This document shows, piece after piece, positions 1 through 27,776 of a DNA stretch of 64,000 nucleotides. The stretch spans positions 160,958 through 224,957 of the forward strand of contig JAIVFH010000057.1 of assembly GCA_025765595.1 (NCBI GenBank), written 5' to 3'. Position 1 is the stretch's first letter. The number at the start of each line of letters is the position of its first letter. The position numbers and the translations under genes were made by a program. This DNA comes from Obelidium mucronatum. Taxonomy: Eukaryota; Chytridiomycota; Chytridiomycetes; Chytridiales; Chytriomycetaceae. Below the pieces are notes generated by a model. It did not search any database. It was given only the letters and a program-made list of their open reading frames with translations, and was not told the DNA's origin.

Positions 1-1848
1 GAACATTTCGGGCTTCGGTTTCGTCATTGCATGGAGAACTTTCTTTGGTTGCCCCAGCCCTCTCTTTTCTTTTTCAGAAAACTTTTGGAACTGTTGCAGA
101 GTATCACCAACTGGGTCACAGGTATTGAGGTCCATTGCTGAAGTCCTGTCAAAAGCTGTCAAAATTGACTCCACTAAAGAAAAGAAAAACGAGCGACATA
201 CAGAAGGTACACGCAGTTTGTTGAACAAGTCACCCCTGCGATCTGTGCTAGATTTTGCAGCAGCGCTGGGAGCAGACTTCTGTTCAGTCTGTCCAGAAGC
301 GGATGTTCCAAGTTTTCCAGCACCTGGAGAAACACGTCCAGAAGAAGATCTTGATCCACTCGCACCAGCCGGTGCTCGGTTAGGAGATGGAGACTTTGCT
401 CGTTGCGAGGTTGGGGACTTTGATCGTTGCGAAACAGGTTCAGGAATAGCCATTGGCTTTGTGGACGCAGGGGCCGTTTGCAAAGCCTGGTATTTTTCAG
501 TGTCCTTTTTGACGGTACTCGTTGCAACAGCAATCTCGGGCTTTTTGGTTGCTGATGAGGATGTAGCCGCACCTGTTGTTCGAGCTCGCGCACCAGGCGG
601 AACATACGCATTTTCAGGCTTATCCGACTTTCGAAGAACAGATGAGTATTTGTCTTCCTCGTTGACGTCTTCATTTCCAGTACTGATGTTCCGTTCTTCC
701 AGCAAATGGGCATTGTCAGTCTGAAGGAGCAAAACATAAGGAACAGGTTTGTAAAAAATAGTAGCAACTCTACAAACATTGCCGAATCCAGCTTCAATTT
801 CCCGCGCAAGACGTGCTGCCTCTGCTTCCTTGCGTTTGAAATTCGGATCACTTTTATCAATAACCGTTGTGTACATTTCTTCCTTGAAATCCGTCTGAAC
901 GCCAAACAAAGACTCATTGGTTGCAAACTGGTCCCACTTTTCGCCTGTCAATCCATTCTCCAAATTCATGGTATCATCCACGTTATCCGTTGTCCACTGT
1001 ACCAGTTCACGTTCACGACCAAATTCGCCAACACGTGCGCCGATAGCAGAATCGGTTTGAAACCCACCTGAGAAGATCGTTCTTAAGTAAAAACTGCGGA
1101 GAACTTCACAGTCTTTTTTTAAAATGTGGATTTACCTTTGTTGCCAGATTCTGGCTTGACTTCGGCAATTTCGAGACCAGAAACTGACAAGGAAACCAAA
1201 TCTTTTGGAAGAATAATCAAGGAAGTAATGACATGAGGCGCAGGCTTTCCATCAATTATTTGACGAGCGAGTCCGAGGGCAATCCCTAAATCGGGAGAGG
1301 CGGTTGCTGTATGCAAAATGCCCTCGTATTGGAGATTGCCCTTTATAACGGCAGTGACTTTGGTACCCTATAGAAATTTTGATCCAGAATCAAACCGCGT
1401 CTTTGGCAAAAACACAGTCCGTACCACCATATGCATGAGTAGAAAATAAATTCGATCCAATTGCTCGTTTTGTGGAGAAGACTGAGCAGGAGCTGGTCCA
1501 TTTTGACTTAAAGCTGAAGAGGGTCTGGAATCCGTACTTTTCAAAGACGCGGGTGGTCCATTGCCCCATTTTCCCTTACTATATACCATGAATAATATCC
1601 GTTAGAGGTTTGAAGGATGTTGCTTCTTGGAGAAGGAATACCTGGCGACATCATTTGTGACAGGTGCTGAAGAACCAGCATAGCCTCCTCGACCACCACC
1701 GCCGTAATTTCCGCCACCGTTATTATTATTTCCCCCGCGATATCCTCCTCGCCCGCCTCCTCTCCCTCCACGGTAGGGTTGTTGCTGTTGGGGTTGGCCA
1801 GAACCGTTTCTGTTTCCGCCTCCGCTTCCGGTACCGCTACTCATCATG
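1..1848 (-). CDS. Ataxin-2 / Pbp1-like RNA-associated protein (3' part outside window)
   Basis: Minus-strand multi-exon gene starting at the ATG pair at 1843-1848. The N-terminus is an RGG/GGN-rich stretch (about 1660-1845). An Lsm-type segment follows: 1444-1475 encodes NEQLDRIYFLLMHMVVRTV, and about 1119-1365 encodes GTKVTAVIKGNLQYEGILH and then a conserved strand region. An LsmAD-like segment at about 790-1050 includes FGVQTDFKEEMYTT and KRKEAEAARLAREIE. A long Ser/Pro/Ala-rich disordered part runs to the left edge. Lsm followed by LsmAD is the signature of ataxin-2/Pbp1, which acts with poly(A)-binding protein in mRNA stability and stress granules. The C-terminal PAM2 region would lie outside the window. 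Introns at about 1370-1380 and 1080-1130 are inferred from frame changes. Family call is firm; exact splicing is not. Confidence 0.8.
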
Positions 1849-2039
1849 AAGCAATCAAACCAAAAAAGTTTACTAAAGAACTGCAAGAACAAGGCAAATG
1901 AGTGAACACCACTTGAAATCAACAAACACCAAAAACCTTTCACAAATTAAGACGAAACCAACGACAAAGTTTCTTGGGAAATAAAAGCGCTGCGAGTGAT
2001 AAAGAATCGCAGATCTAATTGTTTTGTTGTTGTTATTTT

Positions 2040-2428
2040 AATAGTTGCTTCTGTGAGCGTGGGTTTTGCTTGAAGGGTTGGCTGATATCTGCACCAAAGC
2101 CAAGCCAGTCCAGCTCCAGTGGCCACATCTCCAATCTCTCATTAAATACGAGTGCCTCTTGGATTAGATTCAGTCCTCAGTGCGCCTGGCTGAGTCCATC
2201 TTCAACATCATTGAAATGCCTCCAACGAGCTTCAGCACTTCTTCTGGCGTTCTTCCATTGTCTTCAACTCCATTGACCCATAGCATCGGATTCAGCCGGT
2301 TCTTTGAAATATGCGCACCTGCCAGTGACACTCAAGTTGATGGTCTTTGCGAAAAATTTCTTGCCAATGCTGTTATAATAAAATCAATGAACTTTGCTTT
2401 TATTGATACTGTCAAACCAGCTTTCAAT
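2040..2428 (-). other. Coding-like stretch of unknown identity, frame-interrupted
   Basis: Directly downstream of the P4-ATPase stop, the minus strand reads as protein-like pieces in changing frames. One (about 2172-2310) contains NRLNPMLWVNGVEDNGRTPE and EEVLKLVGGISMM. The next (2040-2165) contains NLIQEALVFNERLEMW and ends in a stop at about 2040. They would join if one base were lost near 2170. I do not recognise the family. It may be a small gene with an indel, an unresolved intron structure, or a remnant. Confidence 0.25.
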
Positions 2429-5400
2429 CCATAATTTTAGTGTATGATGGAGGATTCAACCTTCGGTTCACTAACTTCATGACATACAGTGGTAAACTGC
2501 TCACCGCTGTTATCACCAGAACTTTCCAACAAAAGTTCCAAGTCAAGATGAACGTCATATCTTAATTTAAATTTAAAATCATTTTTTTTTAGTCTTCAAT
2601 ATTATGAGGAGGCAGAGGAGAGAAGGGAGATTACCAAAATCAGTCGTCAGCACCCACATGCTTGCAATATATACAACAACAGTCAGCAGCTCACTATACA
2701 CCATCCATCGATGCCAAGTGTGGATTTCAAAAGCCACCATCAAAAGCTCATTGAAAATTAAAGAAGTGAAGGATATGGACACAATGTTCACAAATTCGTT
2801 TTCAAAGAGCATCAGACTGAGCAGCATAATCGCCCCGCCTTGATAAACACTGATAGTTAACCACGTGAAAAAAGTGCGATAGGAAAGCGATCGACCCTAT
2901 TTAACTTTTTTTAAGCCACGATAAATCACCATTAATGACATCCACACCTTCCGCAGGTCTTTATAAAGTTCAGGATACAACAGCGCCATGTCTTCCGACA
3001 AGTCTCGATCAAGTACCAGAGAAAATACGGGAGCCATTGTAAATGCGGTGGCATATCCCACCAACAATAAACCCTGGATGATGGATTTAAATGCCATTTT
3101 TTGAAAGCAATCAGCCGAACCTGATATAGCGGGATGGGCGCATAGTAAAAGATTGCAGAAAAAACTGCTTGCATCACTGATATGATAAGGCCTCTATGGA
3201 AAACAAACTGGCTCAACTTTGCAGATCGCTTGTCTAAACCGAAAAGTCAGAACACATGGTATGCTTGAAAAAATAAATCTCACAGCTATTCCTTCCATGC
3301 CATAATAGCAATTTAGTTAAATAACTAAACTGTGTCACAGAAAAGTCTGCCGCCAAAGATGCCTGCTTTCCTTCTTTTCCAACAATTCCAACACCAACAT
3401 CTGCGGCCTGGATCATACTGACATCATTTCCACCATCACCAATTGCACAAACTCGCCCTTTTGTGGTTGAGGCACGAATTAAGTTTGTCATCTCAGCCTT
3501 TTGAGTTGGAGAACAGCGACAGCAAATGACCACAGACAATAGTAAGGCAGTTGATATAAATGCGGCTCGATGATGTGTAGTGAACGTATGCAGAGACTCT
3601 CCATCAATAATCAGCGCCAAATCAGTTCGATTCCTCAAAAGATCCAATTCGTCCAAGGCTTGAATTGGGTCCGTCACTTATGGGTTGATAACAATGTCAG
3701 CTTAAAGATCACTTCCAGTGAGACCACCTTTCTAGTTACCTTTGGAAATAATATGAATTCCTTGATTCCTTGCAACAAGCTTACTGCTTACAGCAATACA
3801 TTGAGCAGTTTCAATCTTATCACCAGTCAACATCCAAATCTTCAATCCAGCATTCCTCAAGAGCTCCAGAGTAATCTTGACATCATCCTGTAACTTATCT
3901 TCAACACCCGTCAATCCAAGTAACTCTAAATCCCGTTCGATTAACTTCATGGCCCCTTTCACCTTGTCAACGCGGTTACTGGATACATCCACCATGGCAG
4001 CCATATACATCTTTGCAAAATGTGAGTATTCATCTTCAGTCAACCTTCTTCGCGCGACAACCAGTGTACGGAGTCCTTCGCGAGCCATAGTTCCCGCATT
4101 CTTCGTCCAGCCAGTCGTTGTATCTGACAAGCGAAGACATGACCCCGTCAGCGCCCTTCACAAGAAACCAAATCTCGTTTGTAACTTCGTCACGGACGAT
4201 AATTCCCCATTCGCTTCGATTCACTTGTGAATGGAAAAGTTTGAAGGATTTTGAAGGATAGAGTCCGTGCTCGTGGGTGCGAATCTGATTGTTGAAATGG
4301 GTTCGCTGAATAGGAGGTTGGTGATACAAGTTGCTGGTGCAACTGGGAGTGTTGGTTCCATTCATTCGTTACTGTTGGTAGATTGAATTGAGTCGAGTTC
4401 GAGTCGGATATGTGTCAATGAACGCTGCCGAAGTTGGAGACCAACTTGAGCTGTCCATTTGACAATCGCCACTTCGTCCGGTGATGAAGCTTGGTACTCA
4501 ACTTCTTTTCCATCGTCTGAAAAAACCGGAGTAACCTAATTTTCATGTTAAGTTTCTTTTTTAAAGCCAAAAAAAAACCTCCATCACTGAGCGAGAAACT
4601 TACATTGTGACATAATCCAAGCGCAAAAACAATATCCCTTACACGAGTACCGATATCTCTACTTCGTGCACCAGCACCAGCAGCTGAGCTGTTACCCCCA
4701 CTGGGAAGTGTATTGCCTGCAGTCAATCCACCTCGGACGACTCGTCGCACCTCCTCCATTCCTTCTTCACCGGCAAAGGCCATTGTTCCCATATGAAGCT
4801 TCTTCAATTCCATTTCATTTCTCGTCAAAGTTCCAGTTTTGTCGGTCAATAAATAACCAACTCGACCCAACTCCTCAGGAATTGTACTCGTTCTCACAAT
4901 AGTTCCTTTGATGTCACTGTCACCCATAATTTGGTGCGAATAGACAGTCTTTCCCATATCCAAATTCACGCGCAAAGAAATCGGGATAATTGAGCTGAAA
5001 AGGATCAGAAATCGGAACGCTGTGATGTACCACGTTCCCTTTAGACCATCCAGGAATACCAGCAGGAACGCAAGGAGCAGCGAAACGAATGCAAGAATTT
5101 TGGATAGTCGGTTGATTTCGAGGTCGAGTAGACCCACTTTGTTTGCAGGGAAGGATGTATTCATTACTGCACGGGTTTCACAACCAGTGTAAACGATGAA
5201 TCCAACGGCGGTCCCAGACGCGAGAACTGTGTTGCTCCAAAGTGTGTTTTCGATTGTGAGAGGATCCGAATGATTCTACGAGTGGGTTATACTTAAAAAT
5301 CGTACATTCAAGAAGGCGTTTACTACCCCATTCATATGAGTCGTGAAGTTTCCAAGAAAAGTGTGAATATCCTTTGTTGGCCTTTCGGCTTTCAAAAAAA

Positions 5401-6657
5401 AGGGGATCGTCAGGATACGGTAAAAGAATAAGAAATCTCGAACCATAAACAGATGCATTTAAATCGAGGAGCGAATCGTTACTCGGCAGCCGCTGGCATG
5501 AGGGTACGGCAATTCTGCATTTCTCGGTAAAAAATAGTATAAATAGTCTTGTGTCTGAAATACCTCATTTTCCAATCAGTTTCGCCATCAAGTTGATCTG
5601 TTCGAATAAAACACGCTCCACCATCTTCGGTGGTTCTCAAGAGAATGCAATCGGCAGGTACCTCAAAAAATACATAGAATGTCAATACGTTGCGAAATAA
5701 TGAAGTCCCTCACCCTCTGATCTTTATGGATAATGACGAAGTCACCAACACTCAAGTCTGCACTTCTGACCCATTCTGCATCACTTTCGCCGAGATTTTC
5801 ATCACGGTTTAGGCATGAGAGCCGCTGATACATTGCCGAATTCGCTTCCGCATCACGCTTCATTCGTTCGTAATCATCAGCAGCCTCTTTCCCCAGGGTG
5901 ACCAACAGAACAAAAACTAATGGCGCAACATAGGAAAACAAGAGACCGATTTTCAAGGCGGGTATGAACTGAGACAGTGCGATCAAGAGAAAGTACAGAT
6001 TGAAAAAGAACTTGAACTTGAAACACATGCGAGAATGAGAATCAAGCCCATAACAGCAAAGAAAAAATAGAATAGCTTTTGAGACGATACCTGCTCATAT
6101 AAAACCACCGGGAAGGAATGATATAATGTTGTACTTCTGATTTTTGACAATATTTGCTGGGTATTTCCGTTGTGTAATCTAGAACCACGACCAAACGATC
6201 AAATTCAGAGCAATATATAACTGAACGGAGAGTAGTAACGGTCGAGAGGAGATGACAGAATTCCATTTAACATGATACACATTCACTTCCACGTCACCCA
6301 CTCCAAACCCACAAACAACACCCAAAGATGCATCCAATCAATGATGACTGATAGAATTCGTACCCTTGTTGAGAGGAATCGTCCTGCCGCCTGTCGAAAC
6401 TTTTTCGCGCCAAAGGCGTCTTTGACGGTGCGCCAGACTGAGAGCAGACTAAGCTTCCGGCGCGCCGGCTTTCGCAGCGTCCGGCGCTGCGCCGAGTCGG
6501 TCGAAGCGACGGACGGCGCCGGCGAAACGCAAGCGTCGCCCCTGTTTGTGGGCGACGTACTCCGGCGCCGAAACTGCGGCGTCGCCGGCTCCGCGGCGTC
6601 GGCGCCGTCGCCGTGGGAGAGCGGCGCGTACGGCCGCAGTGGCGTCAGCGGGATCAT
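2428..6657 (-). CDS. NEO1: P4-ATPase phospholipid flippase, NEO1/ATP9 type
   Basis: Minus-strand multi-exon gene from the ATG at 6655-6657 ([12 protein letters not shown]) to a stop near 2428. It shows [19 protein letters not shown] (M1-M2), [11 protein letters not shown] (actuator domain, about 5575), [12 protein letters not shown] (M4, about 4965), the phosphorylated-Asp motif DKTGTLT (about 4830-4850), [12 protein letters not shown] (about 3825), [16 protein letters not shown] (about 3410-3455), and a C-terminus ending [18 protein letters not shown] (about 2435-2490). [12 protein letters not shown] and the LNPPSY-type tail point to the NEO1/ATP9 branch, which acts in Golgi/endosomal membranes without a Cdc50 partner. 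Several introns are placed only from frame changes. The first exon (6380-6657) is strikingly GC-rich. Repeat copy A ends 73 bp upstream of the start codon. Confidence 0.87.
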
Positions 6658-17915: not shown

Positions 17916-19301
17916 TTGCGTGATTCTTTAAAGTTGTTGTAGATGGAGGAATGTTTTTTTTTGTTTGATGTTGTGTGTTTTGATATTCTAATATTTGTTT
18001 TGTTTGCAACTCTTTTATATTCCTTTTTTTCCTTGCGCTGAGAGAATAAAGGAAAACTGATATTATGAAATAGACTGCTCACCCCTTGATGGGTTTTCGA
18101 TGGTGGCTGACATTGCAACGACAGACTGGGGTCGAGTGAGTTGCGTGCGCGGAAGAGCCCCGGCTGACTTGCCAACTGCCGCCGATGGTGTCGCTGAATT
18201 AGCACTGGACACTTTGCCAGATTCACTTTCTCTTTTCTTGATCATAACGGCCTGAGTGCGTAAAGCTCGAAATTCTTCCATTCTGTCTTTGAGGGGAAAC
18301 TCAATCAAATACACAGACTTGTTCGCCCCCACAGTTAACTCTATAGTCTCTTCAGCCTGTTTCTTTGCTGCAACAGTTGTCTTTTCAATCACTTTAATGT
18401 TTGCCTGCGACAAAACATGGGTTCCGCTGTAACTCTCGGCAAGAATAATCAACATATCGAGTTCTGGCATAACCATCAAAACAGCTGATTTCCATAAAGA
18501 AGTAGGTCTGTTGGGCCGGATTCCGGTGTGGAACATGAATGTGAGAACTTGGCCGTCGTCTCTGTCGATTCGCGAGACGCTTGATCCTGCTCCCTTGCTT
18601 GATGTGTGTGTCAATGATTGCCTACTTTCAATTTCTCCACGAAGGGAGGGTACAAAGAGAATGAAGGGGGATACAATGCAAATCACCCAAATGGCGACGG
18701 AAATTGTGATTCTGTGCAGGGTGAATATGCCGCTAGTTTGGGCTGTGATTCCAAAAGATATTCCCTGTATTTTATGGTTGATCTTTTGCTTGATTTATAA
18801 AAAATCCGACTTACCAGAGCCAACAGAACCGCGGCGCAGCTAACATAAATAGTCGCACCGACTTGCTTCGACTCATCAAACTTACTGGCAGCTTTGCGTG
18901 TCAATTGCCCAATGTAAACGCACAGAATCATGATCAAGGCATTGAAGCCAAATAGCAATCCCATAAGCGACGTGGCTTGTCGTTCATAACCTGGAGCTGT
19001 TCTGCACGTCCATACTTGGTGCTCTGTATCTGTAAATTCAGAGAGCTGTGGAGTGATTTGGCCTCCTTGTACATATATCAGCGCTAGGACTCCATCGAAT
19101 AATGCGATAAAGTTTGATGCGGCGATGAGAAAGTCATCCTTTATGAATCTAGAGCGAGCAATTCGTGGATATCCAAAGATGAGAAAGATTCGAAACGCTT
19201 TCATGAATATCATACTTTTTTTTTTTTTTTTTGGTTGGATTTTAGTTTTTCTCTTTTTGATAGGTTTTGTGTCACCTGAAAACCATCCCAAAAGTACGGA
19301 A

Positions 19302-19326
19302 GCTGATTTGTTCACAACCGGACGGG
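19302..19326 (+). repeat. Left terminal inverted repeat of the transposon
   Basis: 25 bp starting GCTGATTTGTTCACAACC, matching the reverse complement of 26062-26086 at every position. Similarity continues loosely inward as A-rich, CAAA-repeat sequence up to the transposase ATG at 19401. Confidence 0.92.
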
Positions 19327-19400
19327 GAAAAAAATTAGGGTTGAAACAAAAAATTTCGAGCAACAAACAAACAAACAAACAAACAAAGAAACAAACAGAC

Positions 19401-21409
19401 ATGGCACGTGCCTCTTATTGCACCGAAACAGGGTTGGCGCTAAGTGTTTGCATCCACTGCGTTGATGTAGACGCACTGTCGGCGCCATGGACAGGGCTTT
19501 TCTGTGCATTTCATGGAGGCGAGTTGGCGGGGTCCTGTTGCCAGTGTCCTCCCTGGCCAACTGCAGTGCCAAGAACATCCAGCTTCTCAGCAACTGACAT
19601 CTACAACTCCCCCTTCTACTGCTCTTTCACAGGGAAGCGTGTGGTGGACTGCAACCACTGCCACAGGCATGTTGGTCTTGGTGTCAGGCATGACGACGCA
19701 GCGTTTTTCTGTTCGACCACGGCGCAACTTCTACATGAATGCAATCACTGCAGGGTATCAGTAATGGCAGGCTTCGAGTGCGCTGATGGCGCCAACTCAG
19801 ACGACCTGGATTGCGAAGATGTTAGCGACGTCGAAACATGTAATCAGAACAATGGCTCCCAAGCGAACACTGCAGTCTCAGCGGAATCGGAATCCAATAT
19901 GTTTGCGGTGGTTGTAGACCTCCTTGATGAGGGGCTGAAGAATGCGGAAGTCGTGAAAGAGTTGATGTCTCGATTTGCTGTGACAAGAAGTGTGAGCTGG
20001 CTAGAAAAGTTCAAGAGGAAGCATGGACTGTCAAAGAAGCGACCGGAATTAACACTATTGGAGCAGTCTGATGATTGGATTCAGGACGTAAAGGAGTGCG
20101 TATACAAGGGGTACAAGGCCGCAGAGCTGCAGTACCACCTCAAAATCAAGTGGGGAGTGACCATTGGCCGCACACGGTTATGGAAAATACTAAAAGTAAG
20201 TGAATTCGTCAAGTGAATTCGTCTTGATTCCTCACCTAGAGTAACATTTTGCTTCTGTTGTTTCTTTTTAGACGCACAGAATTTGTCTTACGGATTCGTG
20301 GATACCCACCGACGTTATTGATGGACTGGTTGCTACTGAATCAGCCAACAAACCAGGAATTGGATACCGGGGAATGACCGATATTATCAGGCTGCGATAC
20401 AATGTTAAGGTTGCTCGCCAAAGAATTCATGCCAGTCTGAAGCAAGCCAACCCCCAACTTTCAGCAAGCCGGCTTGGAAACGTCATGTTCCGACGGGTTT
20501 ATGGATCCCGAGGTGTAAACGCTGTGTGGCACTTTGACGGCTACGACAAGCTCTCTCGCTTTGGCTTCGGTATCCACTGTTGTACAGATGGACTCTCCAG
20601 AAAGTACATGTGGTGGTACATCGGATCAACAAACCGCCTCTCTGTGCGTGTGGCTGGTCATTATGTAAAAGCTGTCGAACGAGCCGGCTGGAGACCTGAT
20701 ATTACCCGAACCGATTTTGGCTCCGAGAATGTGGTTGTAGCCACTATTCAGGGTTACTACAGTGACTTACTTGGCTTGACACATGACGGACACATTTATG
20801 GGACCTCAAAACGCAACACTCGCATTGAAGGAGGCTGGAGAATCCTTTCGCGTGACAACTTGAAGTACTGGAAGACACTGTTTGAGATGATGGAAATACA
20901 TCATGCGTATCAGTTCAACACACTGGACTTCTACCACGTCAAAGTAGCTCAGTTTGTATTTGGGGATTTCATCAAGGAAGAATTGAATGATTGGTGCATT
21001 CGATGGAATTCTCACCTTCTTCGGTAATGGTTTTTATTGTTGTTGTTGTTGTTGCATTGTGTAATTAATTGAGGATTGAAACAGGAAGACAAAACAATCA
21101 AGAGCTCCGAGCGGGAGACCGTGTCTTATGTACGACCACCCAGAGGCGTTCGGTTACAGAAACGTAGGACACACCCCTCCAGCAAATCTACGCCAAGTAG
21201 CCGAACAAGCAGCTTGCGACAACATGCCCTTTGAAGGCTACGACATGTTTGACGAAACTGATACATTTGACTTGAACCCATTTCGTCTAAGGTTTGCTGA
21301 TGCGGCTATGTCAGCTGGTTTGTTTCCAGTAACAAAAGCGAACATGTGTGTGCTATTTCAGACACTGACTCAAGATGATGTATTGCGTCAGCAGCTGGGA
21401 TTTGATTGA
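19401..21409 (+). CDS. DDE integrase-type transposase with N-terminal Cys knuckles
   Basis: Three exons, 19401-20195, 20272-21023 and 21085-21409, with GT-AG borders; about 623 residues. The N-terminus has four Cys knuckles, three of strict form C-x9-C-x2-C (YCTETGLALSVCIHC, YCSFTGKRVVDCNHC, FCSTTAQLLHECNHC) and one C-x10-C-x2-C. A helix-turn-helix-like region follows (AVTRSVSWLEKFKRKHGLSK). An rve-like catalytic core in exon 2 has D in AVWHFDGYDK, D in TRTDFGSENV and E in NTRIEGGWR. The WHFDGYDKL and IHCCTDGLSRKYMWWYIGST blocks resemble the integrase-core proteins scattered through animal and fungal genomes. Probable role: cutting and joining element ends. All three acidic residues are present and the frame is open, so it may be active. 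Confidence 0.85.
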
Positions 21410-21600
21410 TCGTGTTCATGTGTTCATTACTATTTAATTCTGTGTGCGTCAAAGAAGAATATATGAAAGTTTGACTTCTTTTAATTGTGAATGAGTTTCA
21501 AACACTACAAACACAAAAAAACACACACAAAGAGCCAAAGAGCCAAACAAAAATACAGACAAAGAAGCAATACAAAATTAAAGCACAAAGTTTGAACCAA
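21410..21600. other. Convergent 3' spacer inside the transposon
   Basis: 191 bp between the stops of the two convergent element genes. AT-rich, with short CACAAA/GAGCCAAA direct repeats (21505-21560). Probably holds both polyadenylation regions; no ORF seen. Confidence 0.5.
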
Positions 21601-24600
21601 TCAACAGTAAGTATTCCCTGGTGTTGCGTTCTCAGCCGCAGAAGCTAATACATTCAGCAACATCTCTATGTCTCCCGACTCCACCACATCCTCCGCTACT
21701 TCCACCGATTTCCCCGCTTCCTCCAACCCCACCTCCGAATACTCCACCAGCTTCTTTGTCTTCTTCTTCTTCTTAATTTCCACATCATGGGCAACCACAA
21801 CAATAATGCCTTCCCTCTTTTTCTTAGACTTTTTCTTCTCCTTTTCACGGGCCTCCTCATCCGACCCAACAGCCATTCCATTTTTCTTTCTCTTCTTTTC
21901 CTTGTTCCTCAACATTGTTCGAATTTCCTCAAAATCTTCCAAATCTGGATCATTTTCAACATTTCCATCCAGAGCAGCTGTGGAAGTTGTAGAAGTAGTA
22001 GCTTTGGTTTCTTTTGGTATACTCCACCAACTTTTATCGGAAGCATCCACAAAGTACCAGGCGGATTGAGTGGAGCTCCAGCCAAGTGTCCAGCCATCTG
22101 GGCATTCTGGCTGAACATACCAGTCGTTTATGTCATTGCACCACTCTACATTCCACCCAATGGGACAATCTGGCCGGACTTCCTTTGAAACTTCAAAACC
22201 AGGTGCAGGAACAACTGCCGCCAGTGGAAGGCCAGTTTCAGACGTGAAAATTCCGCGCACTGTCCAACCAGGAGGTGCTGTCAACAACATTCTTGCTGTT
22301 CTTCGAGTGGCACGTCTGATACTTTCGGGGGTTGAAACGGCAGCAGAAGAACTTATAGCAGCGGATGCCTTTGATGTGGGAAGTTTCTTTGGAGACTTTG
22401 ATTTGGGTGACTTTGATGGATTGTTTGATGATTTCGATGGATTGTTTGAGGGGATACCTAAAAAGACAAAGTCAAAATCAAATGTACAAGTTGAAAAATA
22501 AAAGAAAAGAAAATCAATCACCTTCTCCATATGTGTTCCGTCTTACAAACACAGCCCGAACAAAGTCCAAAGCAACCAACTTGTGACCAGAAGCTTTGGC
22601 TGCATTTTCGGCTTCCCGCTGACGAAGCTCATTTAAGTGCATTCGCACTTCTGGGACAATAACATCGGAAATCCAGCTAATTTTGTTTAAGTCTGATGCA
22701 AGACTTCCAGCCTCTGCATTGGAAGGAGGAATAACAAACAGAGCGGATAATTCCTTCTCAAACAGATCCATTTGAGCCTCCGTCAACATCAATTGGACTC
22801 CTTCCGCTAATGTGGTATCACCTTGGTGTGTCTTTCTGGTTCCCAAAAGGCGCAACTTCTTCAAGTTTCCGGTCAGTTTTGCTTCTCTTAATTCACTTGG
22901 CCGTTTTCCATCCAAAATTTCCTGGACCAATGGAACCACTTGCTTTAACTGCTGCAGAACAATTTCATCAAGAACTGGATTTGTGTCATTGTATCCTTTC
23001 AAGTACCGGTGGAAGTAAGGGTGAATTGGACAAGTTAAAAAATCGGCGTCAAACGCGAGATGAAAAGACGACTTTGCGACTCTGGGAAAGGGGGGGCCGT
23101 CCAGTGGCAGCAACAATTTCGAACGGAAAAGGCTCGTTTGCGTAATGATTCACAATGAACCCCGGTTCTGCAAAAGAATGTATCATTTAAAAAAGGGCAT
23201 GTGTAGCGTTCTTTAAACTAAAATAATTAATACCGTAGCAGCCATCTCGACACACAAGAGCGTACGCGTTTTTACATAAACCAACACCTTCCCAAGGGTC
23301 ATCAAGAATGTTTTCAAACAGGTGAGGATCCTCTTTTGGGGGTTTGGCAGAATCTTATATAAAATTAAAAAAAAACTATTACCCAAACAAAAAAAACTGT
23401 TACACAAACCAACAATGGGTGCAGGTGTAATGACAGCCCGGTCAATGGGAGATAAAACAATGGGCGCCTCCCCAACAGGCAAAACAATGGAAGGATTTGA
23501 TGGAATGGAAGTCTTTGGTGGAACAGAAGGATTTGGTGGAACAATGGGTGCAGCAACATGGAGTGGAATACGTTGAAATACTGTAGTTTCGACTGTCATT
23601 GTTGATTTGGGCCGTTCGAGTCTGGCATATGGGCCTTTTGGGCACTTTTTACCACATATGCGATGTGTTTTAACAAAAGCCCTGTATCCTTGTTCGCCCG
23701 AGTTTCCGTAACCATAGAATCTTTGGAAATCATGGTTGAACTTTCCCCAAAAACAAATCTATATATAGCGTCATCTCAATATATGAGCCGTTGATCAGTA
23801 AAAGCTTCCATACCTGGCAATCAAGAATGTATCGGGGGCCACTGGTCGTCATCAGGAGCTCTACGTCAAGAATCAACGCTTTTCCTTCTAAAACAGCATA
23901 CGATTTGTGTATAAATGCTTCCGCCTGGCAGAAAAGTGTTTAATCACTCAGTCCCTTACTCAAAACTGAAAAAAGGTTACCTCTTCTATTACAGAATGTG
24001 CGAACTCTGGATAATCATCTTGAAGCATATCGTTCACTTCTCCAACATTGGTGATGACCTTCTCCAACGGCCCGACAACCTGCTCCTCAAACACCCACAC
24101 CTTGGAAAGTTCCTCCATATTCTTCATTACACTGGAAAGGCATCCCGACAGTGTCATAAGAATCATACGAGGCGCAATGAAGTGACTTGACTTGTCGTTC
24201 TCAATGTTCCAAGCATCGCACACAGCGCAAACGATTTCCCGAATATAGAGTTCCGATCGAAGAAGGGCTGCCCCATCAAGTTGAACTCCATTTGCAGCTT
24301 CACTCTTTGGTTTCTGTTTCAAAACAGTTTTGATTAGTAATAAAGCTTTTAATAATAAATTAAAAAAATTCGTATCCCAACTCAAAGGCCTTGCTAACAC
24401 TCCGTTTGGAGTTTTAGCGTTGGTTAAGTCATTTTATCCCGTTTGGGAAAAAAAGACATCCAATACAAATTATAAGAGATAAGAAGGAATTTTAAGTACC
24501 TTCAAAACCCAAGTTTTGCCTTCAAAAAGACAGTGTGACACTAGAACATTCATCCATACTTCCTTGGTAGAGCCAGACTTGACTGGTTCAGCAAGCTGGA

Positions 24601-26001
24601 GTGCTGAAATAATGCTTTCGTCAAAGCTCACATGGATGGCTGTTCCAGATCCAGCTCCCTCCTGGAACATAATGGGAGGCGGTCGGGCGGTTGCGCCAAT
24701 TTCCATCAGCTGCTTGATTTCGACTTTGTTTTTCTTAACAGGATGCTCGCCACCTTCAGCCCGATGCTTCTTTGATGGAGGCTCGACAGCATCGAAAAAC
24801 ACCTCAGTCGTATCTACATAAAAATGCTATTAACGTAACAGCAAAGAAAGAGGGGGGAAATTAAAAACTTGCCACAATCTATCGAAATGACAGGTGATGG
24901 CGCTTTACAGCCCGGTGCTTCAGCTGCAGGTGCTTGAGTGCCAGATGTTACAGAGTCACCAAATCCAAAATCATCTTCATCCGCAAAGAAGTCTCGAACA
25001 TTGTAGGGGGCTGTTCCGTTTCTTTGGAGATACTGCAGTGGGAAGTCGGCTTCAGAAGTAAGCAAGTCCTCTTCCCGCTCCTTGGTCAATAGCGGAAGGA
25101 TCACTCGGGGCCGCACTCGAGGAAGGGGGGCAGAGGCAGACTCCAATGCTGTTGCTGTACGTGGGGGGGCTGAAGGAGGAGGAGAGGATGCCGGGCTGCT
25201 TTGAACTGAATGGGGGATAAGCCATGTTTCATCTTTGAGGCACAGGTGCAAAATCCGACTTTTTTGTGAAATAGATTTTGTTGCTATCATGAACCACGAT
25301 TTGACTTTCTTAGTTACGTTCAGACGTGATTTATCATGTATTAGGTCAAATTCATCAGGACATCTGCAAAGCAAATGTACGCTTAGTTTCATGCTCATAT
25401 GCCCAGACGCTCAAAAATACCTTCCACGAATTCCAGTTTGAGTAAGTACTGCGTTAATCACATCTTCACCACTCTGACCGTACGTTGCTTCCACATCAAC
25501 CGCGCCAAACCGTGACGTTTCAACAGAGGCCACCAATGATACTTCCGGTTGGTACTTTACTTTCCCCAACAACACTTTGAATGTAACCGTCTTGGCATCC
25601 TCCGCTTCTAAAGTTCCACCCTTCACCCTTCTTTTCTGTTCTTGGTTGGCTTTGTTAGCACGCAGTTTTGCTTGTATGGTCAGGGGATCTTCCATCTTTT
25701 CGTTGTTAAAGTGGCGGACACGCTCGTCTGCAAACCGCCGCTGTTGCTCAAGGAGTTCGGCAGCATTCTGCTCATGCGCTGACTTCTGCTGAACTTTCGG
25801 TTTCGAACTCTTTGGTGGGGACTTATCGTCGATACGACGAAGTTTGCATCCTTTGCAAGGACATTCGCTGCACGGATTTCCAGTCTCACCGCAGTAGAGC
25901 ATTTTCGCTGGATGGTCTGCTATTCCTAATCCGCAGTGGTCGCACTTTGCGCGCACCTTCCCGGTGAGTGGACAGTGCAATGACGGCGGGACGTTTGACA
26001 T
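21601..26001 (-). CDS. Large accessory protein of the transposon (Cys knuckles, WW-like domain)
   Basis: Minus-strand gene of about nine exons, ATG at 26001 (MSNVPPSLHCPLTGK), stop at 21601. The N-terminus has HCPLTGKVRAKCDHC, the same C-x9-C-x2-C form as in the transposase, then a second Cys cluster (YCGETGNPCSECPCKGC). The middle has a charged coiled region (about 25640-25760), Pro/Ala-rich linkers and helical exons I cannot assign. Near the C-terminus are two Trp-rich units; the second, CPDGWTLGWSSTQSAWYF then DKSWWSIP (about 22010-22110), matches the WW-domain pattern. A Lys-rich, nuclear-localisation-like tail follows. One likely indel lies in the seven-base G run at about 23090. The function is unknown. 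Location and shared knuckles suggest it works with the transposase. Confidence 0.72.
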
Positions 26002-26061
26002 GTTTTTGTTTTTGTTTGTTTGTTTTGATTCAATTTTTTCTTCGTGCGTCTTTATTTTTAT

Positions 26062-26086
26062 CCCGTCCGGTTGTGAACAAATCAGC
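26062..26086 (-). repeat. Right terminal inverted repeat of the transposon
   Basis: Exact reverse complement of 19302-19326. It abuts receptor gene 1 coding sequence (…IIPAIAFCG) on its outer side. Confidence 0.92.
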
Positions 26087-27776
26087 CACCGCAAAAAGCG
26101 ATCGCAGGTATAATAATTTTCGTATAACAAACACTTATAGTCTCCGTAGCAGCTTCCGCGATAATGGCGAATATCCCCAACAGACAGCCAGCCAAGATAT
26201 TAATACAGCAAAGTGGGGACATTGCTTTGATCGCTGGCTGGCCTCGATTCAAGAATACCATCACAATCAAAGCCACTAACAATACCGTTCCAGTTCCAAA
26301 AAGCGCCAACTGAGCTTTTGTGATCGCACCAGGTATAAAAAAGGGTGATCTTTCAGAACATGTTCGTAACTGGATATTCTCGTATCCAAATTCACAGAGA
26401 CATTCCACATCCGACTCTTGAAAGGCATACAAGTTTTTGCAGTATCCACGAACGCATGGGTTTTTGTAAGTCAGATCAATATCAGGATCGCAAACAGATT
26501 TGCCGTATAGCTGTTTACCACGGACTTCAATATTGGCAAGGGAAATTAGCGCGTGATTTCCAATCGATGTATTGAAAATTGGAATGAAGCCGTTTGCTGT
26601 CGAATGCTCTGGATGGGAAATCAGGAACCATAACAAGCGAAGTGTCCACAAGGACACAGTATCATCCGTAGATATATTGCTTGGATTAATAACAATATTT
26701 GAAATGATAGTCCATGGATATGCTCCAACTGCTGAAGTATCGATCACTGATAAAGCACTGGTTGCTTCATCCAAGTTGTAGACAGCAGATACATTTATAT
26801 TTGCAATTGCATGAAGTCCTGAGTAAGAAGACCAAGAGATATATTCGCCGTTAATGTGCTGGATTAAAGCCGTTGTCTGAGCGCTTAGGGAGTTTAACTC
26901 GAGATCCTTTGCTTCAAGTTGATTCAAATATGTGAACGTGTATGCCACAGATCCAACGATAATAGAAGCTGATGCAGTTGTGGCGGCAGTAATGGCGTTT
27001 TTCAAGGAGAGCTTAAACCCCTTCACTAAGTACGGTGATTTTTCAAATCCAGTGGATATATCCATTAAACCAAGCGCATGAACAAGGTTCTGACTGGCTC
27101 CCGATCCCGAGCTTCGAACCACTACCGTGATTGGTTTATTGATATTGGCCAAGAAAGGGTTTTCTTTCAAGAGGGCAGGATCATTCCATTGCGTAATTGT
27201 GCCATCATAAATTCGTGGGAGAACCACGCGAGACAGCCGAACGGTCTCATTTACTCCTGGCAGGTTGTAAGAGTTGATTAATCCTCCTGCAATCGCTGGT
27301 AGTGCGATTAGCCTGGTTCCATTGGGCTGAGCAATATTGATTGGGACATCACTGCCACCAAAGGCAAACGCGCCGGAATAAACTCCTTTTTGACCTGATG
27401 TCGAATCTGACGCTGTATATGAAATACTCTTTAAAGATTTTCCGTATAGATCATTGAATTCTTTGATGGCTGAAGCAAACGCGGGGGCAGAGAAACTCGA
27501 GCCACCAGCAACAATAGCTGAGCATAGAGAGTGAGTACTACATTCATCAACGGATTATCATAAATACATTGAGGGTGAACCAGTTTAGCCAACAGAGTGA
27601 GCCAAACCACTACGAATATGACCATTGTGTCAGAATTGTCAGTTTCGATCGCCCTGCGAAAAATATTCGCAAAGCAACAAGGTATAATAGAGAAATAAAT
27701 AGTAAAAATTGATGGCAAATGTTTCAAGTCAACTTGTTTCATAGAATCCTCCCTTGAAAAACAACACGACACCAAC

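Follow-up and report, generated by a model that had tools for sequence, protein, structure and literature searches.

The window analysed here, a 64,000-nucleotide stretch of contig JAIVFH010000057.1 of the chytrid Obelidium mucronatum, holds a DNA transposon with two convergent genes. Gene 1 encodes a transposase with an integrase-type catalytic core (DDE), and gene 2 encodes an alpha-kinase-like protein. Near its limits lies an inverted repeat (19297-19333 and 26055-26091) with 89% identity across 37 nt and a perfect core of 24 bp. The original prediction proposed searching the source assembly for this repeat. It does recur: with at most 3 mismatches allowed, the core was found at 8 sites in the 48.3-Mb assembly, exactly at 6 of them, and the reversed pattern, used as a control, was found at 0 sites. 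The 8 sites make up three two-ended copies, namely the window copy (C57), C262 and C131, and two lone left ends, C2 and C50. Searches with the whole ends returned five left ends and three right ends; the right-end search gave seven matches, four of which are weaker matches to left ends through the common core.

C262 is a second complete copy, with both genes inside the same ends and a target-site duplication (TSD) of its own. C131 is an internally deleted derivative, likewise with its own TSD, in which gene 1 runs to about codon 470, gene 2 to about codon 253, and the middle is gone. In C2, gene 1 is stop-free in the matched parts and the copy breaks off within the far end of gene 2. C50 has a left end only; a 4.85-kb insert interrupts it, and just a far-end piece of gene 2 is present. 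The insert (1577-6425 of that locus stretch) has a C2H2-looking N-terminus and a 628-aa open reading frame (ORF), and looks like Plavaka transposases; a 209-aa part of it, searched against Pfam, had no match.

Ends and insertion site of the element

The original prediction set the element at 19302 to 26086, with perfect terminal inverted repeats of 25 bp. The inverted repeat is there, but its perfect part is 24 bp long and does not reach the ends. Outside the core the copies have 8 more base pairs in common, TACGGAAG on the left in all five copies and TGCGGTGG on the right in all three, and these outer 8 bp differ between the two ends at three positions, so the perfect part of the repeat is internal. 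Since the copies share these 8 bp beyond the core and 5-bp duplications agree just outside them, the limits, set by where the copies stop matching, are 19295 and 26093 (6,799 bp), 7 bp further out at each end. The TSD is 5 bp in 3/3 two-ended copies: AAAAG in the window, TCCTT in C262 and TTATA in C131. A 6-bp TSD was rejected for this family, as shifting the ends by one base yields none. All three two-ended copies have the ends TACGG..CCGCA, with one end of the TG..CA type.

The window copy was inserted in an exon of a host gene for a class-C G-protein-coupled receptor (GPCR) and splits that gene. The two parts match Pfam 7tm_3 separately (Table 1), the shorter match lying below the cut-off; when the flanks are joined at one TSD, a single 7tm_3 match of 92.4 bits covers positions 12-225. 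The element is thus a real mobile element.

Table 1. Features of the transposon and its insertion site (positions in the window)
Feature	Position	Strand	Basis or remark
3' part of interrupted host class-C GPCR gene (7tm_3)	18683..19289, limits approximate	-	Pfam 7tm_3 positions 88-225, 54.8 bits
Left TSD AAAAG	19290..19294	.	identical to 26094-26098; TCCTT, TTATA in the other two-ended copies
Whole transposon, 6799 bp	19295..26093	.	copy-end comparison; 5-bp TSD in 3/3 two-ended copies
Left terminal repeat	19295..19326	+	TACGGAAG + perfect 24-bp core
Gene 1, transposase	19401..21409	+	3 modelled exons 19401-20195, 20272-21023, 21085-21409; 623 aa
Gene 2, alpha-kinase-like accessory	21601..26001	-	9 modelled exons; frameshifted at ~23093 in window copy
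Gene 2 exons	26001-25421, 25363-24873, 24813-24500, 24313-23981, 23924-23814, 23758-23410, 23353-23234, 23167-22522, 22457-21601	-
Part of gene 2 matching alpha-kinase (exons 3-6, residues 448-649)	23642..24544	-
Gene 2 N-terminal Cys cluster (suggestive), residues 7-47	25861..25983	-	hidden Markov model from transposase clusters, E 0.0056 (13.9 bits)
Right terminal repeat	26062..26093	-	TGCGGTGG + perfect 24-bp core
Right TSD AAAAG	26094..26098	.
5' part of interrupted host GPCR gene (PBP_like_2 + 7tm_3), continues upstream	26099..27227	-	Pfam 7tm_3 positions 12-84, 22.4 bits

The transposase and the alpha-kinase-like protein

Introns of both genes were predicted from splice signals and from comparison of the copies. 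Gene 1 is open in the window and in C262 (626 aa). Its product has two N-terminal Cys clusters, a helix-turn-helix (HTH)-like region and a DDE core that matches Pfam rva_4 (PF24764, integrase core) with E 5.4e-26 for the window exon and 5.1e-27 for the C262 protein; the C262 protein matches rve only at E 0.13, and HTH matches are weak. As predicted from the sequence, the core carries all three catalytic residues, D357, D416 and E454 in C262 numbering, spaced by 58 and 37 residues. Both genes were expected to start about 75 bp inside their own repeats. Counted from the core, gene 1 starts 74 bp and gene 2 60 bp inside. Among eight homologues, three from Rhizoclosmatium globosum and R. hyalinum (P0002-P0004) are 48-70% identical and the five others 29-35%. 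An AlphaFold model of P0003 (574 aa) has an overall pLDDT (predicted confidence score) of 67.4, better in the core and poor in the N-terminal 117 residues; its predicted fold resembles the cores of retroviral integrases and, less closely, those of TnsB, MuA and IstA. NCBIfam models of IS3/IS481 match the homologues P0008, P0002 and P0006, all below the cut-off.

Gene 2 was modelled with about 1,266 codons in the window, in keeping with the predicted convergent second gene of more than 1000 codons. C262 has 8 exons, one small intron fewer, and is open for 1,233 aa; the database record P0001 (Obelidium mucronatum, 1,210 aa) is this same C262 gene, 98% identical to our model and with another splice choice. 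Relative to C262, an additional base has entered a stretch of C near 23093 of the window gene, after which the other frame is open for 474 aa. This frameshift is either a mutation or an assembly error in the C run. The window copy is therefore not fully intact: the original description of an apparently intact element is right for gene 1 and the ends but not strictly for gene 2.

The alpha-kinase domain matches PF02816 in both copies, with E 6.5e-11 for the window sequence preceding the frameshift and E 5.1e-10 for C262. The two profile scores, 40.2 and 43.1 bits, exceed the cut-off of 21.3. PF02816 also stands in an excerpted table row of PMC5295586. The motifs were compared in an alignment, made with a hidden Markov model (HMM), of the gene 2 domain with five other alpha-kinases of this genome. 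In alpha-kinases the DxQG and TDPQ motifs are conserved, and an H/C/C set binds zinc. Gene 2 retains the Asp of both motifs, a GNxGxxG stretch and the zinc-type H/C/C, and a Lys-containing WVLK stretch is present in the protein. A WW-like stretch near the C-terminus is insignificant (E 4.7). ORFs at C2:595.7k and C172:27.6k share 28-31% identity with residues 772-930 of P0001; these long ORFs (C2:595634-596998 and C172:27558-28034), similar to the helical C-terminal region, lie outside the copies found. For the helical C-terminal exon only a low-quality model was obtained (pLDDT 64.9), and a structure search with it gave no match at E <= 0.001. When the PDB was searched by sequence for relatives of the C262 kinase domain, there were 0 matches at E values up to 10. 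At E <= 0.001 the gene 2 protein found its own record P0001 only, none from another species, among 7,987 candidates scored.

Are the two genes maintained? Between the window copy and C262, the one copy pair on which these values rest, the ratio of nonsynonymous to synonymous substitution rates (dN/dS; Nei-Gojobori) is 0.133 for gene 1 (623 codons), and for gene 2 it is 0.192 before the frameshift (769 codons) and 0.273 after it (435 codons). Both genes are under purifying selection. When gene 2 was divided into nine blocks of at most 150 aligned codons, the lowest dN/dS, 0.10, was in block 450-600, which overlaps the kinase domain. The original prediction called the partner obligate-looking; selection on gene 2 fits this, an obligate function itself being putative. 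Along the same two copies, about 450 bp at the right end (about 25640-26093) are about 99% identical, whereas the other 250-bp blocks mostly show 63-87% identity, with one at 47% and the left-end block at 92%. This difference indicates that the copies have exchanged sequence, by conversion or recombination.

The N-terminus of gene 2 also suggests a feature in common with the transposase. An HMM was built from seven transposase Cys clusters (window, C262, P0003 and P0004) and searched against 2,252 sequences, comprising the window and locus ORFs and C262 gene 2. Gene 1 itself ranked first, followed by the window gene 2 exon (E 0.0056), C262 gene 2 (0.012) and an unrelated ORF (0.024). In its first 60 aa gene 2 scored 17.3 bits, against a maximum of 10.1 among the 1,995 scored of 2,000 shuffles, 0/1995 of which reached the real score. 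A shared N-terminal Cys cluster is thus suggestive.

Other alpha-kinase and rva_4 loci of the genome

Profile searches, made exon by exon for PF02816, gave at least 20 matches to PF02816 at 14 or more loci and at least 25 to PF24764 at 18 or more. Within the stretches covered, a convergent rva_4 core lies beside the kinase in 2 of the 14 kinase loci, C71 and C96. Five of the 18 rva_4 loci belong to the window family, two are C71 and C96, and 11 have no PF02816 match within 1.5 kb on either side. This does not imply that a kinase is absent there, because the exon search overlooked even gene 2 (neither C57 nor C262 belongs to the 20 matches) and a kinase may lie beyond that distance. At the rva_4 locus C15:53.7k a kinase is 7.3 kb away with repeats between, and it was not counted as a pair.

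In a DDE tree of 15 rows, C71 and C96 form one group (100/98) and the window family forms another (100/99). The kinase-linked rows need two changes on this tree, where long branches meet, and have a single origin in 15% of bootstrap trees; the kinase may have been acquired once or several times. C71 is bounded by a perfect 25-bp inverted repeat, TACAG..CTGTA, with the 6-bp TSD GTTATC (1/1); a TSD base that happens to pair as well would bring the repeat to 26. Its kinase, 477 aa as modelled, shows the canonical motifs, and its match to myosin heavy chain kinase A has E 2.7e-14. There are apparent in-frame stops in both genes of C71 and an apparent frameshift in the kinase of C96. C126 is an incomplete copy of C71 at 94%, and C165 is a 99% copy of the kinase part of C96 that stops at the contig end. 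Among 7,994 candidates scored, the C71/C96 kinases matched the three Obelidium proteins P0010-P0012 only.

Other alpha-kinase loci are near-identical over most of the stretches compared: C81:46567-49806, C15:59773-63012 and C441:2318-5557 at about 99%, C13/C38 at 97-99% and C49/C35 at 95%. Judged from sequence, these repeated loci may be mobile too. By eye, two similar-looking ORFs, C15:60261-61033 and C96:5624-6317, each adjoin alpha-kinase genes; the two stretches gave no DNA match to each other, and the C15 form has no Pfam match. Two more rva_4 families occur in near-identical copies, C45/C313/C15:376k (about 97%) and C101/C182/C124 (96-97%), with no PF02816 match within 1.5 kb on either side in the same exon-wise search.

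Mechanism, alternatives and known systems

How might this element move, and what would its kinase-like protein do? We think it quite probable that this chytrid element is a DNA transposon of the cut-and-paste type, IS3EU-like, with a selected alpha-kinase-like accessory, which most likely acts in trans on transposition. The N-terminal zinc-type Cys clusters and HTH region of the transposase would bind the terminal repeats, and its D, D, E core would cleave the ends and link them to the target at positions 5 bp apart, from which the 5-bp duplication would result. The accessory would move with the element and be retained by selection. It could phosphorylate the transposase or a host chromatin or repair factor, or serve as a kinase-fold scaffold, and it might be brought to the element by the Cys cluster resembling that of the transposase.

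Several observations weigh against this reading. Published IS3EU elements have TA..TA ends and usually a 6-bp TSD (excerpts of PMC10045372, here and below), unlike the window family with its TACGG..CCGCA ends and 5-bp TSD. The C262 transposase itself has no IS3 or IS481 match; it matches only IS630, in the HTH-like region, at E 7.6e-4 and below the cut-off. A complete gene 2 is absent from three of the five copies (C131, C2 and C50). In both gene 2 copies the kinase motifs are eroded, DxQG to DVEL and TDPQ to LDCQ, with Q changed to E and the G and P lost, which makes catalysis doubtful. The Cys clusters resemble each other weakly, at E 0.0056 and 0.012, with the unrelated ORF at 0.024. This genome has only three two-ended copies, and neither activity nor excision nor a real empty-site allele was observed.

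Other explanations must be considered with these points in mind. There is practically no chance that two ordinary host genes merely lie between a chance inverted repeat: nothing was found in favour of this, and it is refuted by another locus at which the two genes lie between these ends and are flanked by a different TSD, by a deletion derivative with its own TSD, and by the GPCR gene that the element splits and that joining the flanks restores. A real possibility, though we lean against it, is that gene 2 is passenger cargo, selected for a job in the host or against host silencing and taking no part in the transposition reaction. Fungal DNA transposons do carry TET/JBP genes that are interpreted as anti-silencing (excerpts of PMC12730594, here and below), and among the copies lacking a complete gene 2 (C2, C131, C50), C2 has a gene 1 that is stop-free in its matched parts. 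However, the same class of partner in the same convergent layout is found in C71 and C96, two elements distant from the window family, and both window-family proteins seemingly have the N-terminal Cys cluster in common; because of this, action on the element itself fits.

Is the domain still a kinase? It might be a pseudokinase scaffold, its fold kept for binding and its catalysis lost in this lineage, which we hold to be a real possibility, though less likely than not. The eroded motifs in both copies agree with this, and the C71 kinase, by contrast, has canonical motifs and its myosin heavy chain kinase A match. On the other hand, the Asp of each motif is kept, as are the H/C/C and WVLK stretches, and the block with the lowest dN/dS overlaps the domain. 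Since the pairing recurs in one genome and the partner is under purifying selection, a real role for this partner seems preferable to random capture. A bolder proposal, which we regard as rather unlikely, is that the alpha-kinase is a dedicated transposition factor kept with this transposase lineage across fungi, docking through the shared Cys cluster on the ends or the transposase and phosphorylating the complex, so that the element would be a kinase-controlled DNA transposon. The alpha-kinase expansions of some fungi would then be largely transposon genes. A kinase that belongs to the transposon machinery itself would, if true, be a novelty in biology, and the idea is testable.

The preferred reading, an IS3EU-like transposon with an alpha-kinase-like accessory, can be set beside known systems. 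The original prediction left the superfamily unclear and considered a new family. The partner is alpha-kinase-like, and its pairing with a transposase is already known from Kojima 2025 (PMC12730594), where in all TET+ IS3EU families a TET/JBP gene lies between transposase and alpha-kinase genes in opposite orientations, with such elements in Pucciniales and Tuber. A new superfamily was accordingly rejected. The window family agrees with these elements in this arrangement, in its left end TACGG, which fits the TAYGG of the rust elements, and in terminal inverted repeats of about 30 bp. It differs in its chytrid host, in a TSD of 5 bp rather than 6 bp and in the right end CCGCA rather than CCRTA. 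No TET/JBP match was found in the ORFs and proteins scanned, small ORFs being only partly covered, and the comparison of gene 2 with the published kinases covers their layout. We call the family IS3EU-like, not a member, because it departs in two features used to describe IS3EU: the integrase-type DDE is present, but the TA..TA ends and the 6-bp TSD are not. C71 has both TA..TA ends and a 6-bp TSD. The novelty lies in a lineage from a chytrid whose end and TSD length differ and whose partner protein has taken a form of its own.

The pairing of DDE and alpha-kinase is thus extended from rusts and truffle to an early-diverging fungus, and within one genome it occurs in the window family and in two distant, mutually related elements. 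Many alpha-kinase genes in fungal expansions, such as that in rusts (excerpts of PMC4469406), may be mobile-element genes. In the open-licence PMC literature, alpha-kinase occurs together with IS3EU in one paper; no paper was found there that joins alpha kinase, transposase and chytrid, and none on the Obelidium mucronatum genome and transposable elements. GingerRoot elements likewise have an integrase-type transposase, and some families have TG..CA ends, occasionally, but their TSD is 6 bp (PMC10045372), against 5 bp in 3/3 here; the word 'kinase' is absent from the main text of that paper. The family does not fit Zisupton/KDZ: the transposase has no KDZ match in Pfam up to E 10, and the TSD is 5 bp, where KDZ elements have 7 or 8 bp (PMC12730594).

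C71 and C96 have the same convergent pair, and C71 begins with TACAG, but their DDE and kinase sequences are deeply diverged from the window family, their motifs are canonical and the C71 TSD is 6 bp. Compared with the C71 kinase, the window-family protein is larger, its motifs are eroded, and its Cys cluster is weakly like that of its transposase. In the two-component systems MuA/MuB, TnsB/TnsC and IstA/IstB, too, a transposase of integrase fold is paired with another protein dedicated to it. In those systems the partner is an AAA+ ATPase, while here it is an alpha-kinase-like protein.

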